DNA from: a virus
IMG/VR virus record: IMGVR_UViG_3300044612_000754
Coordinates: 1-21,640 of that record
Direction: 5' to 3' (one strand)
Length of the DNA stretch: 21,640 nucleotides
Part shown: in pieces, positions 14,208-21,304 of the stretch
Layout of the letters: each line of letters opens with the position of its first letter
How positions within the stretch are numbered: position 1 is the stretch's first letter
Program-made: the position numbers and the translations under genes
The notes under the pieces: model-generated
Database searches by the model: none
What the model was told of the DNA's origin: nothing
Seen by the model: only the letters and a program-made list of their open reading frames with translations

Positions 14208-14742
14208 AAATTATGTAGATGTACCTCACAGAATTAAATTATTCTATGAGAAGTATCCAGAAGGTTCATTGCAAATGGATCCTGATTTGCAGTTCCAGAC
14301 AGTTGGAGATCAAGTGATTGTAATAGGCAGAGCTTATGCTTATCGCAATCCACAAGATGAAAAACCTGGTGTTGGTACTGCTCAAGAATATTTACCTGGT
14401 AAAACTAACTTCACTCGAGGTAGTGAAATACAGAACCTTGAAACAAGTTGCTGGGGTAGAGCCATTGGCGCTTTAGGTATTGGCATCGATAAAGCAATTG
14501 CAAGCAAAGAAGAAGTAGAACTTGCAATTGAACGCAACAAACCAGATAAAGTCATGATGAAACGTGCAAATCCTGGTTTGAAGCAAATAGTAGAGTTGCT
14601 AGGAACGCAAGGCATCACGGAGAAGGATGCCATCCTAGCGGCAGTACGCGGCCTAGTAAGCCGTGAAATAAGTTCGAGTAGTGACTTAACTGATGATGAG
14701 ATTGCTCTTATCATTAAACACCTGGCGGTTGTTGAGTCATGA
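14191..14742 (+). CDS. candidate single-strand annealing/recombination protein
   Basis: A 183-residue protein with AGGGGGATTAA before its ATG. It starts YVDVPHRIKLFYEKYPEGS and has TRGSEIQNLETSCWGRAIGA then LGIGIDKAIASKEEVELA, a pattern reminiscent of ERF/Rad52-type annealing proteins common in actinophages, in which a W-G-R-A-x-x-x-L-G-I core is flanked by strands. The last 50 residues form a small helical domain (LKQIVELLGTQGITEKDAIL). Coupling to the RecB-like nuclease upstream supports a recombination role. The family call is from pattern memory and could be wrong; other ssDNA-binding functions are possible. Confidence 0.6.
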   Translation: MDKRLENYVDVPHRIKLFYEKYPEGSLQMDPDLQFQTVGDQVIVIGRAYAYRNPQDEKPGVGTAQEYLPGKTNFTRGSEIQNLETSCWGRAIGALGIGIDKAIASKEEVELAIERNKPDKVMMKRANPGLKQIVELLGTQGITEKDAILAAVRGLVSREISSSSDLTDDEIALIIKHLAVVES

Positions 14743-15164
14743 CTCGAATGTCTTGGGACAAATATGGATTGGAGATTGCGAGAGCAGCCTCCTATCGCAG
14801 TGAAGATCCATATCTAAAAGTTGGTGCATGTGTTCTACGCGGGGATAGAAGCATAATTAGCATCGGCTACAATGGGGCTGCGCCTGGCGTCACGATTCCG
14901 TGGGAGGATAGAGACGCTAGGCGTGGTTTTGTGATACACGCAGAGGTGAACGCATTGCGTTATTGCACACCAGATCAAACAAAAAATGGCTACATGTATT
15001 GTACACATCATCCATGTTCTGAATGTATAAAAGTAATTGCTAGTTACGGAATTACTTCTGTCATGTATTCTGATCTGATAGATGGAACAATTTACGATCT
15101 AGGTGCCATTGCTGAGTTAGCAAGAACATGTAACATTTCATTAAAACAGGAGGTAAAACCGTGA
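14739..15164 (+). CDS. dCMP deaminase family protein
   Basis: A 141-residue zinc-dependent deaminase. HAEVNAL (His67, Glu69) supplies a zinc ligand and the catalytic Glu, and HHPCSECIKVI (Cys93, Cys96) the other ligands. ARAASYRSEDPYLKVGACV and SIGYNGAAPG are typical of dCMP deaminases, which turn dCMP into dUMP. The ATG overlaps the preceding stop (ATGA). It opens a cluster with dUTPase/dCTPase, a small kinase and a dCMP hydroxymethylase-like gene, matching the T4 set (cd, 56, 1, 42). In such a setting it balances the dCMP and dUMP pools. Confidence 0.88.
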   Translation: MTRMSWDKYGLEIARAASYRSEDPYLKVGACVLRGDRSIISIGYNGAAPGVTIPWEDRDARRGFVIHAEVNALRYCTPDQTKNGYMYCTHHPCSECIKVIASYGITSVMYSDLIDGTIYDLGAIAELARTCNISLKQEVKP

Positions 15165-15592
15165 GTGCTTTACAAATGATTTTAGATAATCAAAGAAAAC
15201 TACAACTTAAGTCATATGGAGTAGATGTTACTGCTCTTGATGAAGAACAACGAGCTCAATACATTCGTGACATGTCCTTGGCTTTAACAGATGAATTGCA
15301 TGAAGCATTGAATGAAACTGGTTGGAAACCATGGGCTACAAGTCGGCATTTCAATCGTGCTGCTTTTGTAGGCGAAATGATAGATGTGCTCCATTTCTGG
15401 GCTAATTTAGTCTTAGTTGCAGGTGTTAATGAACAGTCCATTCTAGATCTTTACTTTGAAAAGGCAGATAAAAATGCTAAACGCCAACTTTTAGGTTACG
15501 ATGGCGTAGAAGGTAAGTGCAAAACCTGTGGACGAGCATTTGATGACGCGGCTGTTCTATGTACTCCAATTGCTTGTGAGCACATAGAATGA
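15161..15592 (+). CDS. dimeric all-alpha dUTPase/dCTPase with C-terminal zinc ribbon
   Basis: A 143-residue protein starting at GTG 15161, with AGGAGG seven bases upstream. LTDELHEALNETGWKPW (Glu45, Glu48) and GEMIDVLHFWANL (Glu72, Asp75) are the metal-binding motifs of the all-alpha dUTPase_2/MazG superfamily; KADKNAKRQLLGYDG completes the family pattern. It hydrolyses dUTP, and in some relatives dCTP, to the monophosphate. Residues about 119-139 add CKTCG and further Cys, a small zinc ribbon uncommon in this family as far as I know. If it also acts on dCTP it would play the role of T4 gp56: keep plain dCTP out of DNA and feed dCMP to the hydroxymethylase. Confidence 0.82.
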   Translation: MSALQMILDNQRKLQLKSYGVDVTALDEEQRAQYIRDMSLALTDELHEALNETGWKPWATSRHFNRAAFVGEMIDVLHFWANLVLVAGVNEQSILDLYFEKADKNAKRQLLGYDGVEGKCKTCGRAFDDAAVLCTPIACEHIE

Positions 15593-16623
15593 AATACGTA
15601 TTAGATGATGTAGTCACCTCATTTACAGATCGAATTGCTAGTCATAGATCTGCTTGGCCAAGAATGCAGAAGTGCATGGTCGACAATGCTTTTAATACTA
15701 AATCTGAAATTGCTTTTGGCAATGACCAACTTGTCAAAGAAGGCACATGGTTAATATCAACTCCTATGGAATTCAAAGGTGAAGTCTTTAATCTATTTGG
15801 TGGGTATACTCGAGAAACTAGAGACAGAATCGCCAGAGTTTTAGATATGGATCTTGCAAATATCAAAGCTTTAGATATGCCTATCGGTGACATTGAAAGA
15901 ATTCTACGTCCACGTGCCGCAAAGACTGATTTTGATTTTACAGAATCAGAATGGACTAAGATTCGTGATCTCATGAAATGCGAAGTTATTAAACATGAAG
16001 ATCTTGTTTTGGACATTCAGCGAGTAGTTATTGGCGATTCTCATTCAATTTCTAGATACAGAGCAAACACGGTTGTTTATCGTCATGATGGTTTGACTTT
16101 ACATGGTTTAACTGAAAGAGGAATAGAACCTTACCTTCCCGATTATTTTGTACCTCATCTAGTAATTTACGCAGGAAATGTAGACATAAGACACCATTTA
16201 TGCAGACAACTAGATCCTGAAGGTTCAGCACGTAGATTAGTCAGTAATCTTAGAATGCATTTAGAACACATGCAGCAAAAAGGAAAAATAGGAACATTTG
16301 AGGTTACTGCTCCATATCCTATTGAGTTCGAAGAGCGTAAAATTCCAAAAACAGGATTCTACAAAGGCACAGCTTTTTATGGGTCTCATCCTTCACGTGA
16401 CAGGGTTCGTCAAGTTATGACCAATGAAATGAAATATCAATTTGACAATGTTCATGAGTGGCCAACAAATTGGTACATGATTGATCCAGAAGACTACGCT
16501 AAAACTTACATGGAAAAACCTGGATCTGTCCATTTATCTCCTGAATTCTATGAGTGGGACTTAGTTAATAACTATGAAAACTTTTCTCCTGAAGTATATC
16601 CAGGGAAGTTATTAGATGTCTAA
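15589..16623 (+). CDS. SGNH/GDSL-hydrolase-like protein of unknown role
   Basis: A 344-residue protein. Residues 1-140 form a domain I do not recognise (TWLISTPMEFKGEVFNLFGG near 53-72). From 145 the sequence has the block order of SGNH hydrolases: VVIGDSHS (Ser151), LVIYAGNVDIRHHL (Gly196, Asn197) and GSVHLSPEFY (His315), although the Asp normally three residues before that His is absent. SGNH enzymes are esterases or acyl transferases. It sits inside the nucleotide cluster with ATGA coupling upstream and an eight-base overlap downstream, so its substrate may be a modified base or nucleotide. That link is inference. Confidence 0.6.
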   Translation: MKYVLDDVVTSFTDRIASHRSAWPRMQKCMVDNAFNTKSEIAFGNDQLVKEGTWLISTPMEFKGEVFNLFGGYTRETRDRIARVLDMDLANIKALDMPIGDIERILRPRAAKTDFDFTESEWTKIRDLMKCEVIKHEDLVLDIQRVVIGDSHSISRYRANTVVYRHDGLTLHGLTERGIEPYLPDYFVPHLVIYAGNVDIRHHLCRQLDPEGSARRLVSNLRMHLEHMQQKGKIGTFEVTAPYPIEFEERKIPKTGFYKGTAFYGSHPSRDRVRQVMTNEMKYQFDNVHEWPTNWYMIDPEDYAKTYMEKPGSVHLSPEFYEWDLVNNYENFSPEVYPGKLLDV

Positions 16624-17668
16624 AATAACTGAAACTATTTATTGGGAAGACTTTAAGAAGTATTACGAGAAGGCTGTTGTTTTGCAAACAATTAACATTG
16701 CTAGTGAAAACGGTCGTGATACATCTGAAGATCTTCACGTAGATGATCCGTTGCAACATCACATCACAATCTATGACACGGTAGATCGTGAGTTTGCTGG
16801 ATTTAGTAATGCTATCCAGCAGATTTGGTATGGCAGTGACAATCCTAAAAAATGGCAAATCGATAAGCGCTTTGATAGTTACAAGTTACATCCAATGGAC
16901 TGGATGTTTCTATTCATGATTCACCGAGTAACTGGTTCAGGTGCTTCATTTTCATATGACCATGGATTTAGGAATAGCATTCTTTCTGATATGGCATTAG
17001 AAGCTGATAACATGATTCACATGCGAAACTTTGTATTGAGTCAAATGAAGTCTGGTAGACCAATATTTACTAGTATTGGTAATCAGATACCACAGTTTCC
17101 AAAGCCAAATGAGCAATATCCTCGTGGATCTCAGCTCTATATAGCAGAGTATATGCCTCATCTAGTAAAAGATTTTTATACTCATTTAAGTTACAATCCT
17201 TTGTCCATGTCAATACGAGATGGAGTAGATTGGATAAATGAATGGCACAAAGCTCAAGGTCTAAAATGCTTTCATTTTGTTATGACTGCATTTGTAATGG
17301 ACGTTGCTCAGTATTTTCCTGATTTAATAGATCCATGGAGCAGAGTTAACTATGGTTCTAATGCAATTCAAGCATTAAACTTAATATTTAAGAACGAAGG
17401 TTACAAACAAAAAGACTTTCTAGATGCCGCAATGGATCGTATTTGCGAGGAATTTAGATCTCCATATGACCCACGTGACCATCAAAGAAATCTAGGAAAA
17501 GGTTTAAGCCTAGAAGATGTTGCTTGTGACTATGTCCGATATGTTGAATGCTATGTACCAAAAGGTTATGAACATCTCAAACCATGGCAAGTGACAAACA
17601 AATCACTTATACCTCATCACACAAAACATTGGACTTACAACAAACATTTGGAGGCTCACAATGTTTAA
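16616..17668 (+). CDS. unknown helical protein in the nucleotide/DNA-modification cluster
   Basis: A 350-residue, mostly helical protein. Notable segments are SYKLHPMDWMFLFMIHRVTG then GSGASFSYDHGFRNSIL (88-123), and, in the second half, WSRVNYGSNAIQALNLIF. The compact 'HRVTGSGASF-x-x-x-H-G-F-R-N' stretch looks like an active or binding site. I do not recognise the family. Helical proteins derived from DNA glycosylases act as amino acid:DNA transferases in thymidine hypermodification pathways, and this would be a place to look for one, but no specific motif of theirs is evident. It overlaps its neighbours by eight bases on each side, so it is made together with the PLP enzyme. Confidence 0.55.
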   Translation: MSKITETIYWEDFKKYYEKAVVLQTINIASENGRDTSEDLHVDDPLQHHITIYDTVDREFAGFSNAIQQIWYGSDNPKKWQIDKRFDSYKLHPMDWMFLFMIHRVTGSGASFSYDHGFRNSILSDMALEADNMIHMRNFVLSQMKSGRPIFTSIGNQIPQFPKPNEQYPRGSQLYIAEYMPHLVKDFYTHLSYNPLSMSIRDGVDWINEWHKAQGLKCFHFVMTAFVMDVAQYFPDLIDPWSRVNYGSNAIQALNLIFKNEGYKQKDFLDAAMDRICEEFRSPYDPRDHQRNLGKGLSLEDVACDYVRYVECYVPKGYEHLKPWQVTNKSLIPHHTKHWTYNKHLEAHNV

Positions 17669-18548
17669 GATAACCACAGATTCGTCAAGTAAGTACTCAC
17701 ATCGGCATCGAGATCAGTGGTTAGATCTTGCTGGTGATTGGACTGATGAAACACAAGCACCAAATATAGGTACATTTCATGGAGCAACAATATGGGATGA
17801 TTCTGTAACTGGAGTTGGCACAAAAGGTCGATGGGGAGATCTATTAGTTAAAACTATGGAATCAGATCATTTAGTTTATGTACAACCAAGAGTAGGTTGG
17901 GCAGGAGTTTCGTTAGCTGCTCTTGCAAAGAAATATAACAAAAAGTTAACATTGTTTATGCCTTCCTCAAAAGTGGTCAGTGACCATCAATTAGTTTGCA
18001 TTGAAAGAGGAGCAAATCCAATCTTTCGAAGAATTGCAGCAATGCCAGTTCTCAACAAATATGCCAAAGATTGGGCAGAACAAAATAATGCTCAATTTGT
18101 GCCATTTGGTTTAGATCATCCCCTAGTTGTTGCGGCTGGAGTTAAATCTACAATCCAACAATGGGGAGACCGAGATGAACCAAGAGATGTTGTATCAGTT
18201 ATTAGTACAGGAGTTCTCACGAGAACTCTCCAAATTGCTTGGCCAAATGCAACATTCCACGGAATTGCAGTTGCAAGAAACCTACATCCAGGAGAGATCG
18301 GAAGAGCGGACGTTACAACTTACCATAAAGCTTTCAGAGAAAAAGCTGAGTATGCAGACAAAATCAATGAGGAAATTAACTCCGCACCAACATACGATTG
18401 CAAAGGTCTAGAGAGATTTATGTTGGACAAAACAGCTGCTCCTAAAACACCTTCTACTTTATTGTGGAATGTAGCAGGTGACGTAAAACCAGTTACAATG
18501 GTCCATTCACAAGTCGATAGTTTTAGAGAATGGGGTGAGTTTAGATGA
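17661..18548 (+). CDS. PLP-dependent enzyme, fold type II (TrpB/ACC deaminase-like)
   Basis: A 295-residue protein with the layout of fold type II PLP enzymes such as ACC deaminase, cysteine synthase and threonine synthase. GVGTKGRWGDLLV holds the likely Schiff-base lysine (Lys55), similar to the GNKxRKLEYL of ACC deaminases. YVQPRVGWAGVSLAALAKK (73-91) fits the helix and loop after it, KLTLFMPSS the next strand, and VISTGVLTRTL (about 195) the place of the phosphate-binding glycine loop. Such enzymes rearrange amino acids by elimination or replacement. Its substrate is unknown. It lies among dCMP hydroxymethylase, kinase and SGNH-like genes, so a role in decorating a modified base is a reasonable hypothesis. 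GGAGG precedes the ATG. Confidence 0.7.
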   Translation: MFKITTDSSSKYSHRHRDQWLDLAGDWTDETQAPNIGTFHGATIWDDSVTGVGTKGRWGDLLVKTMESDHLVYVQPRVGWAGVSLAALAKKYNKKLTLFMPSSKVVSDHQLVCIERGANPIFRRIAAMPVLNKYAKDWAEQNNAQFVPFGLDHPLVVAAGVKSTIQQWGDRDEPRDVVSVISTGVLTRTLQIAWPNATFHGIAVARNLHPGEIGRADVTTYHKAFREKAEYADKINEEINSAPTYDCKGLERFMLDKTAAPKTPSTLLWNVAGDVKPVTMVHSQVDSFREWGEFR

Positions 18549-18988
18549 TTACAATCATCGAAGGTTCTGATGGAACAGGTAAAACAACTTACGCTCAAAA
18601 ATTAACTGAACGATACAATGCACAATATTTACATGCTCAACAACCTAGAACAAGGTTATGGTCAGATGAATACATTCGACCGTTAACTTCTAGCAACATG
18701 GTTTTAGATCGATGGCATTTAGGTGAAGTTGTATGGCCAAAAATCTATGGAAGAGTATCATTGTTTGATGAAACAACATTTGATTATTGCAATTGGGAAC
18801 TTGCTAAACTAGGAGCTAGGTTAATCCTATTAACAAGATCAGAAGATGCGATAGCTGAAGAATTGTTAAGACGGGGTGAAGAACTAGAGATTGATTTTGT
18901 TCTACACTCAAGATCTTTATTTGTAGAAGCTTTTAGACAAGTAAAATATTTAGACAAAACAATAATCCATAGTGAGGTGGTCAGGTAA
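18545..18988 (+). CDS. small P-loop kinase, dNMP or hydroxymethylated-base kinase
   Basis: A 147-residue P-loop kinase. EGSDGTGKTTYA (Walker A, Lys13) starts the fold, VLDRWHLGE (Asp55, Arg56) resembles the thymidylate-kinase DR motif, and RRGEE (109-113) is a short lid. At 147 residues it is smaller than bacterial Tmk. It overlaps the PLP gene (ATGA) and the hydroxymethylase-like gene (TAATG). It could phosphorylate 5-hydroxymethyl-dCMP, as T4 gp1 does, or phosphorylate hydroxymethyl groups in DNA as in thymidine hypermodification, or simply be a dTMP kinase. Sequence alone does not decide. Confidence 0.78.
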   Translation: MITIIEGSDGTGKTTYAQKLTERYNAQYLHAQQPRTRLWSDEYIRPLTSSNMVLDRWHLGEVVWPKIYGRVSLFDETTFDYCNWELAKLGARLILLTRSEDAIAEELLRRGEELEIDFVLHSRSLFVEAFRQVKYLDKTIIHSEVVR

Positions 18989-19797
18989 TGCATATAATTA
19001 CAGAAAATCCAAGCGAAGCTTTAGAGTTAGCAACTCAATACGTAATTGAGCATGGTGAAGCAATATCTCCTCGTGGTATGGTCACTAGAGAGCTGCTTAA
19101 CGTCACTTTACAAGTTGAAAAACCATGGAACATACCTGTATCTATGGAAAACCGCAAACTTAACCACAATATTGGTATCAAAGAAGCATTACAACTTGTT
19201 GGACAAGTTACTGATCCAGAAGCAATGACAAATACCAGTCAAGTGTTTGGAAAGTACATGGATAACGGAATACTTCATGGTGCTTATGGTCCACGTATTC
19301 ACGGTAATCTCAATAAGGTTGTAGATCAATTAAAGAAAGATTACTCTACAAGACAAGCAGTTTTGACTATATTTGACTCAAATAAAGATCTAAATGTCGA
19401 TGTAAAAGATGTTCCTTGTACATTAAACCTTCAGTACTTCATCAGAGACAATAAGTTAATTGCTAGAACAAACATGAGAAGCAATGACGTATTTTTAGGT
19501 CTTCCATATGACCTGACTCAATTTATTGCATTACAAGGTGCAATTGCCAAAGCTTTAGATATTGAAATGGGTCAATATGTACATGTTGTAGGTAGTTTAC
19601 ACATTTACGATGAACACATTCCACAAGCTCAATGGATCAAGGCATATTTTAATGGTTCATTTAAGGATTACGAACCAATGTGGACTGGAAATACAATTGG
19701 CGAGATCAGTCACACTGCTAGATCTATACTAAAAGGCAACATTCCGGATTATTTAACTCGCTTTGAAAGATTCTTGGCAGGTAAAATCAATGACTGA
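18988..19797 (+). CDS. thymidylate synthase-fold enzyme, probable dCMP hydroxymethylase
   Basis: A 269-residue enzyme. The active-site residues keep a constant offset of -2 from E. coli ThyA: Cys144 (DVPCTLNLQY), Arg164-Ser165 and Asp167 (MRSNDVFLGLP), His205 and Tyr207 (VGSLHIYDEH). ThyA Asn177, which recognises the uracil ring, is Asp175 here (LPYDLTQF). T4 dCMP hydroxymethylase has Asp at this place, and from memory its MRSNDV and NVGSLHVY segments match better than ThyA's. No Trp is found in the region of ThyA Trp80, whose loss favours hydroxymethyl transfer. Expected reaction: dCMP plus methylene-tetrahydrofolate to 5-hydroxymethyl-dCMP. A dCMP methylase is an alternative. TAATG couples it to the kinase. 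Confidence 0.8.
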   Translation: MHIITENPSEALELATQYVIEHGEAISPRGMVTRELLNVTLQVEKPWNIPVSMENRKLNHNIGIKEALQLVGQVTDPEAMTNTSQVFGKYMDNGILHGAYGPRIHGNLNKVVDQLKKDYSTRQAVLTIFDSNKDLNVDVKDVPCTLNLQYFIRDNKLIARTNMRSNDVFLGLPYDLTQFIALQGAIAKALDIEMGQYVHVVGSLHIYDEHIPQAQWIKAYFNGSFKDYEPMWTGNTIGEISHTARSILKGNIPDYLTRFERFLAGKIND

Positions 19798-20694: not shown

Positions 20695-21029
20695 CTAATC
20701 TATCTAGAAAACGAAGAGGTCGAGAGACTGAGTTGATCTTTGCTGAATACTTAAAACGAGAAGGTTGGATTTATGCTGAGGCAAGCAGTTCTTCAGCTGC
20801 AGGAACAGACATAAAAGGTGTTATCGGAGTTGATTGGGAACTTAAAGCTAGAGCAGACTTTGATCCTAAATCAGCAATGAAACAACAAGCAAAAAGAATA
20901 AAAGAAGGCGTAATCCCTATCGCTGTATTAAGACAGAATGGACAAGGTGAAGCCGACATTGAGAATTGGCCAGCTTGTGTTCCAGTAAGCGTAATGATAC
21001 AACTACTGAAAGAAGCGGGATACTTGTGA
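20691..21029 (+). CDS. Holliday junction resolvase-like PD-(D/E)XK nuclease
   Basis: A 112-residue protein starting at the ATG in an ATGA overlap. It has the compact resolvase/VRR-NUC layout: KRRGRETELIFAEYLKREGW (Glu14), SSAAGTDIKGV (Asp40), and VDWELKARADF (Glu50, Lys52), then KQQAKRIKEG. The E...GTD...E-x-K order is the core of Hjc-type and related nucleases that resolve branched DNA before packaging. The substrate could also be another branched or nicked DNA. It partners functionally with the recombination genes at 13437-14742. Confidence 0.78.
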   Translation: MTNLSRKRRGRETELIFAEYLKREGWIYAEASSSSAAGTDIKGVIGVDWELKARADFDPKSAMKQQAKRIKEGVIPIAVLRQNGQGEADIENWPACVPVSVMIQLLKEAGYL

Positions 21030-21304
21030 CGATTAGAGATTTAGATTTTAAGGTTGAAGCAGCAGAATGGACTAAAGATGCCAATTGCACTGATCCAAGC
21101 ATAGATCCTGATTGGTTCTTTCCTGATAGTGAACATCCAACGAATTTAGAACAAAGAGCAGCTTTAAGTATATGCAAGAACTGTCCAGTGCAAATGAATT
21201 GCTTAGGTTATGCAATCAAGCATTGGCCAGTGTATGGAGTATGGGGTGGCATGAAAAATAAAGATATAAAAGATCTAGTCCGACAAATAAAGGAGCAAAA
21301 ATGA
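21026..21304 (+). CDS. WhiB-family iron-sulfur transcription regulator
   Basis: A 92-residue protein with the four Cys of WhiB proteins: Cys21 (DANC), Cys50 and Cys53 (ICKNC) and Cys59 (QMNC), which hold a 4Fe-4S cluster, and the GVWGGM turn (71-76) that contacts the vegetative sigma factor. A GTG at 21026 overlapping the previous stop is the likely start, giving MTIRDLDF. WhiB-like genes are restricted to actinobacteria and their phages, where they rewire host transcription or block superinfection (as shown for mycobacteriophage TM4). The C-terminal basic tail is short (DIKDLVRQIKEQK). Confidence 0.92.
   Translation: MTIRDLDFKVEAAEWTKDANCTDPSIDPDWFFPDSEHPTNLEQRAALSICKNCPVQMNCLGYAIKHWPVYGVWGGMKNKDIKDLVRQIKEQK

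Follow-up and report, generated by a model that had tools for sequence, protein, structure and literature searches.

A phage gene cassette predicted to supply hydroxymethylcytosine and to decorate it by means of an SGNH-like protein, an all-helical protein and a PLP enzyme

Which modified base is specified by a cluster of seven overlapping phage genes in which a set of enzymes for hydroxymethylcytosine appears to be interleaved with three genes of less obvious purpose? The window analyzed here, by which we mean the whole stretch of DNA, is a 21,640-base IMG/VR record, and the cassette occupies positions 14739-19797 on the + strand as seven open reading frames (P1 to P7). Their coordinates and their matches in Pfam and PHROGs bore out the original prediction of seven overlapping genes and of their enzyme families, with adjacent frames overlapping by 4, 4, 8, 8, 4 and 1 bases from P1 to P7. 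The entire set is also present in many close contigs, and P3, P4, P5 and the hydroxymethylase recur in phages that are just 30 to 45% identical, with other gene orders. Recurrence both of the whole set nearby and of the reordered trio and hydroxymethylase at this distance argues that the grouping is not due to chance. A search of bacterial genomes matched only three metagenome-assembled contigs. A candidate WhiB-like protein, read from its cysteines, is encoded at positions 20966-21304 of the window and would suggest an actinobacterial host.

The last gene of the cassette, P7 (18988-19797, + strand), matches the Thymidylat_synt family (PF00303) at 2e-22, and its best match in the PDB is the CMP 5-hydroxymethylase MilA (3.7e-21). 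In an alignment of P7 with its relatives (A7), the catalytic residue Cys144 is invariant, and Asp175, which aligns with Asn177 of E. coli TS, is aspartate in 16/16 aligned relatives. Aspartate at this position is a mark of cytosine-specific enzymes (PMC8670742). With MilA as its nearest solved protein, P7 is predicted to be a dCMP 5-hydroxymethylase, and the earlier claim that the cassette holds a cytosine-type enzyme is upheld by the aspartate. Outside the window's near relatives, 38 records that carry P3, P4 and P5 were searched for any TS-family gene, and 33 proved to have one; all 33 have the aspartate and none has asparagine, and the five records without a TS-family gene are fragments of 9, 22, 25, 27 and 54 kb. 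The background rate is approximately 5%, since P7 matches 2,442 of 50,697 phage records, ordinary TS counted in. The proposed link between the three extra genes and the hydroxymethylase is thus near-obligate, and homologs of the trio, far from lying mostly away from hydroxymethylases, are mostly accompanied by one.

P1 (14739-15164, + strand) matches dCMP_cyt_deam_1 (PF00383) at 4e-19 and the dCMP deaminase family phrog_174 at 8e-37 and contains the zinc motif HAE...PCSEC; we assign it to dUMP supply or pool control. P2 (15161-15592, + strand), an all-alpha dUTPase/dCTPase, matches dUTPase_2 (PF08761, 1e-11) and phrog_18650 (4e-33), and we infer for it a role like that of T4 gp56. P6 (18545-18988, + strand), a small TMK-like P-loop kinase with a weak match to Thymidylate_kin (PF02223, 4e-5) and one to phrog_761 (2.6e-7), is probably an hmdCMP kinase, although it may instead be a DNA kinase; its proposed equivalence to T4 gene 1 is tentative. 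The cassette thereby resembles the T4 hydroxymethylcytosine pathway (cd, 56, 42 and 1) in its deaminase, dUTPase/dCTPase fold, cytosine-type hydroxymethylase and small kinase, but its seven genes include no glucosyltransferase and hold a trio of SGNH, ADDT-like and PLP proteins instead. It is similarly like the 5-hydroxymethylcytosine carbamoyltransferase contigs of MetaGPA, which combine an Asp177-type hydroxymethylase, a deaminase, a pyrophosphohydrolase and a decorating enzyme; there, however, the decorating enzyme is an O-carbamoyltransferase (PMC8670742), a type of enzyme that did not turn up in the present cassette. By analogy with T4, P2, P1, P7 and P6 would form a supply branch that makes hydroxymethyl-dCMP and feeds it to the dNTP pool, which would place hydroxymethylcytosine in the phage DNA.

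The trio lies between these supply genes, and its members are closely tied to one another. Relatives of P4 were clustered at 80% identity, which left 28 evaluable clusters, and the neighborhood was taken as the surrounding 5 kb. P3 was present near P4 in 28/28 clusters and P5 in 27/28, as against 21 for the hydroxymethylase, 18 for the deaminase and 8 for P6; in the sole cluster without P5 in range (L303), P5 is situated just beyond the fetched stretch. Co-occurrence of the homologs in other phages, which had been put forward as a check, was therefore confirmed for both partners of P4. The order was P3-P4-P5 in 20 of 30 listed representatives, P4-P5-P3 in 4 and P3-P5-P4 in 3, with genes that mostly overlap or abut, and in one record (L120) P3 and P4 are fused into a single ORF. 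Conservation of the trio over 30 to 45% identity despite this reshuffling supports a single pathway. Identification of P6 as the 5-hmdU DNA kinase was rejected because P6 had no match to PF18748 at E<=1 and is near the trio in so few clusters.

P5 (17661-18548, + strand) provides the clearest link to known chemistry. Matches to PALP (weak, 0.002), to phrog_7093 (1.3e-28) and, by profile, to cysteine synthases identify it as a fold-II PLP protein. The family phrog_7093 is also that of YuA gp11 (8e-157), and comparison of P5 with the M6-type PLP enzyme by hhalign gave 98.6%; these sequence matches place P5 and the M6/YuA PLP enzyme in one phage family. Lys55, the predicted Schiff-base lysine, is present in 27/27 sequences and the STG loop is conserved; PR-x-G-x-A stands in place of the usual SGN loop. 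In YuA and M6 the PLP gene comes right after the amino acid:DNA transferase gene, and the thymidine cassette comprises the PLP gene with aGPT-Pplase2, rSAM, a kinase and aGPT-Pplase1 (PMC9476957). P5 has further relatives in phages of Erythrobacter and Microcystis, in which no TS-family gene was found. In these, a P5-like PLP domain is fused to or lies beside ParB and N6/N4 DNA-methylase parts (L091:2326-4764 and L090 from Erythrobacter phages; L092:11105-12696 from a Microcystis phage), and these genes perhaps represent another PLP-based DNA modification.

P4 (16616-17668, + strand) was harder to place. It had no Pfam match and no significant PHROGs result, and tblastn against all phage records returned nothing. 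Pfam searches with 11 and then 30 of its relatives gave nothing useful, and ADDT was absent from the matches of the 30. An initial AlphaFold model, built from a shallow alignment, had a pLDDT of 55 and was discarded; the model from a 30-sequence alignment is all-helical, with a pLDDT of 92.0 and a pTM of 0.91. A Foldseek search of BFVD with this model retrieved ADDT-labelled proteins (3.9e-18 and 8.6e-6), the SP10 5-hmdU DNA kinase (2e-5), and alpha-GPT-PPlase and HMUDK_hel proteins, with a probability of 1.0 for the best eight, as well as a weak match to the SGNH fusion of Aeromonas phage 31. The fold search of the PDB yielded chance matches only, with no ADDT among the 50 matches listed, though 8z2m is a solved ADDT. 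With the ADDT HMM (PF18724), neither 44RR2.8t nor phiAS4 nor any of seven viral records that carry P4 or P3 relatives gave a match at E<=1. Profile-profile comparisons of P4 with ADDT or HMUDK_hel were not significant and scored lower with deeper alignments, these being scores without an empirical null. Alignments of P4, ADDT and HMUDK_hel nevertheless share a C-terminal E-x3-C signature, and P4 takes the top ranks, weakly, in an ADDT-profile rank test. Setting the fold match, the signature and the weak rank test against the non-significant profiles, we predict from the model that P4 is a member of the amino acid:DNA transferase/HMUDK-helical superfamily and not ADDT proper. A profile match between P4 and P3 (82%) was set aside, since the L120 fusion most likely produced it. 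That fusion apart, the best match to the P4 profile outside the P4 family (13 bits; BLAST 8e-4) is a 319-aa gene next to P4 relatives (L130:8999-9955, L136:8990-9943 and L264:2118-3074), which in L130 and L136 lies between the P4 relative and the PLP gene and is a possible diverged tandem paralog of P4.

P3 (15589-16623, + strand) itself has no Pfam match, and its assignment as SGNH-like draws on conserved residues and on matches of its relatives. Lipase_GDSL is matched by 4 of 28 relatives (best 2.7e-4) and the SGNH family PF19040 by 2. The alignment contains a GDSH motif with Ser151, together with Asp199, Glu309 and His315, all invariant (27/27), and Asn197 in 25/27; Ser151, Asn197 and His315 are the predicted catalytic residues. 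P3 thus has the GDS serine, the G-N-x-D block and the catalytic histidine that mark the SGNH superfamily. The aspartate of the usual D-x-x-H block (block V), three residues before the histidine, is absent from the P3 alignment, where position 312 is G, S, R, Q, K or N. P3 is the constant partner in the triad records, and no counterpart was found in the thymidine cassettes examined, which makes it the sole trio member without one. The suggestion that the trio stands outside the thymidine pathway consequently survives for P3 but is not supported for P5, a member of the YuA/M6 family phrog_7093, or, by predicted fold, for P4.

Either P4 or HMUDK_hel is close by in 16 of 17 evaluable P3 clusters. 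Where P4 and P5 are missing, P3 also adjoins inositol-phosphate synthase, the TAGT (TET-associated) glycosyltransferase and HMUDK_hel. One such cluster (L174:7887-13117, and likewise in L184, L186, L201 and L204) contains the SGNH gene, inositol-1-phosphate synthase, a TET-associated glycosyltransferase, HMUDK_hel and a dUTPase-like gene, and is possibly a second decoration cluster of sugar or inositol type. In phiAS4 (L094:5775-9044), UDP-galactopyranose mutase, a 358-aa protein and the SGNH gene stand in a row; some relatives of the 358-aa protein carry a glycosyltransferase annotation. The Aeromonas T4-like phages 44RR2.8t and 31 have an SGNH domain of the same family (approximately 32% identity), and 44RR2.8t has a cytosine-type hydroxymethylase too, but in both phages the domain is fused to an HMUDK_hel-like domain and no trio was found. 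The fusion of 44RR2.8t (L093:8001-10388) is 795 aa long and adjoins a sodium:solute symporter gene. Given its proximity to inositol-phosphate synthase, TAGT and HMUDK_hel, or to UDP-galactopyranose mutase, P3 may take part in an acyl or sugar step of wider use.

Further close parallels are the thymidine cassettes of M6, YuA and Pam3 (5-NedU) and of ViI (5-NeOmdU), which likewise cluster a pyrimidine hydroxymethylase with a helical protein whose superfamily P4 would share, judging from predicted structure; those of M6, YuA and Pam3 also include a PLP enzyme of the P5 family. The present cassette differs in its cytosine-type hydroxymethylase, in a P4 that the ADDT profile does not recognize, and in an SGNH partner in place of the PF18748 kinase and radical SAM enzyme. 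PF18748 was detected in ViI, M6, YuA and Pam3 but in none of 21 triad records, most of which may be fragments, and in none of five records that carry P3 without the trio (three viral records, 44RR2.8t and phiAS4). Radical SAM matches, weak in M6 and YuA, were absent from 26 triad records, again perhaps mostly fragments. The CmoA/CmoX/CmoY carboxymethylcytosine-glycine system also places an amino acid on a 5-substituted cytosine, but through other enzymes, with a carboxymethyl handle and an ATP-dependent amide ligase (PMC12783734).

We favor, with somewhat better than even confidence, a pathway in which hydroxymethylcytosine is made, incorporated, and then decorated within DNA by P3, P4 and P5, as a counterpart of amino-acid hypermodification. 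The analysis shows the gene content, the cytosine-type residue, the co-occurrence, the fusions, the family relations of P5 and the predicted fold of P4; we infer that the proteins act on DNA, in what order, to what product, and what P3 and P5 each do. Weighing against this pathway are the non-significant profile comparisons of P4, the P5 relatives in phages where no TS-family gene was found, the P3 genes that occur apart from P4 and P5, and the missing block-V aspartate of P3. P3, P4 and P5 would act on the hydroxymethyl group. P4 would attach an amino acid or amine at the 5-methylene carbon, and P5 would process an attached amino acid with a free alpha-amino group or make the donor. P3 might activate the hydroxymethyl group by acyl transfer, the step performed by a DNA kinase in thymidine phages, or might acylate or deacylate the product. 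More tentatively, the SGNH enzyme would replace the DNA kinase outright, acylating the 5-hydroxymethyl as a leaving group that the ADDT-like partner, in some phages fused to the SGNH enzyme, displaces with an amino acid, which the PLP enzyme then remodels; we regard this full scheme as unlikely. An amino-acid-derived or acyl group, the product direction originally proposed, is retained as the best direction, and the link to amino-acid chemistry comes from the family of P5 and the predicted fold of P4. In the M6 route, N-linked glycine must first be made C-linked by a radical SAM enzyme and then enters a PLP step, whereas the ViI route uses O-linked serine. Because no radical SAM enzyme was found, a side-chain-linked residue would fit better, by analogy with ViI, and as the product we would prefer, for example, O-linked serine, which may have been decarboxylated to an aminoethoxymethyl group.

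A different decoration deserves the most serious attention among the alternatives, although we consider it unlikely: the hydroxymethylcytosine could bear an acyl or sugar-type group, with P3 as the acyltransferase and P4 and P5 supplying or positioning the substrate. SGNH proteins include O-acyltransferases, and P3 recurs with the inositol-phosphate synthase, TAGT glycosyltransferase, HMUDK_hel and UDP-galactopyranose mutase genes described above, but the seven genes yielded no match to a glycosyltransferase or sugar enzyme, and the pairing of an M6/YuA-family PLP enzyme with an ADDT-like protein speaks for amino-acid chemistry. Alternatively, the trio might act on free hydroxymethyl-dCMP or -dCTP, so that the finished base is incorporated ready-made. 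In the window's group the trio is tightly coupled to genes of the nucleotide pool, which would suit this arrangement, as would the hydroxymethylase aspartate, a nucleotide-level feature; we nevertheless hold it improbable in view of the structural relatives of P4. These relatives include amino acid:DNA transferases, whose substrate in thymidine hypermodification is DNA. The same holds for the 5-hmdU DNA kinase, also among them (PMC6449724). Least probable of all is plain T4-type hydroxymethylcytosine DNA, for which the supply genes would suffice, with the three extra genes serving host take-over or metabolism, since the trio stays with cytosine-type hydroxymethylases across 30 to 45% identity, several gene orders and one fusion.

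Amino-acid hypermodification of the ADDT/PLP kind has so far been described for thymine. From the occurrence of the same enzyme families beside cytosine-type hydroxymethylases across a range of uncultured phages, we predict that decorated cytosines form a class of their own, and the SGNH partner is common to several hydroxymethylcytosine phages, the cultured 44RR2.8t and phiAS4 among them. The enzymes of the trio are possible tools for labelling hydroxymethylcytosine. For the phages themselves, decorated bases can protect DNA from restriction and CRISPR.
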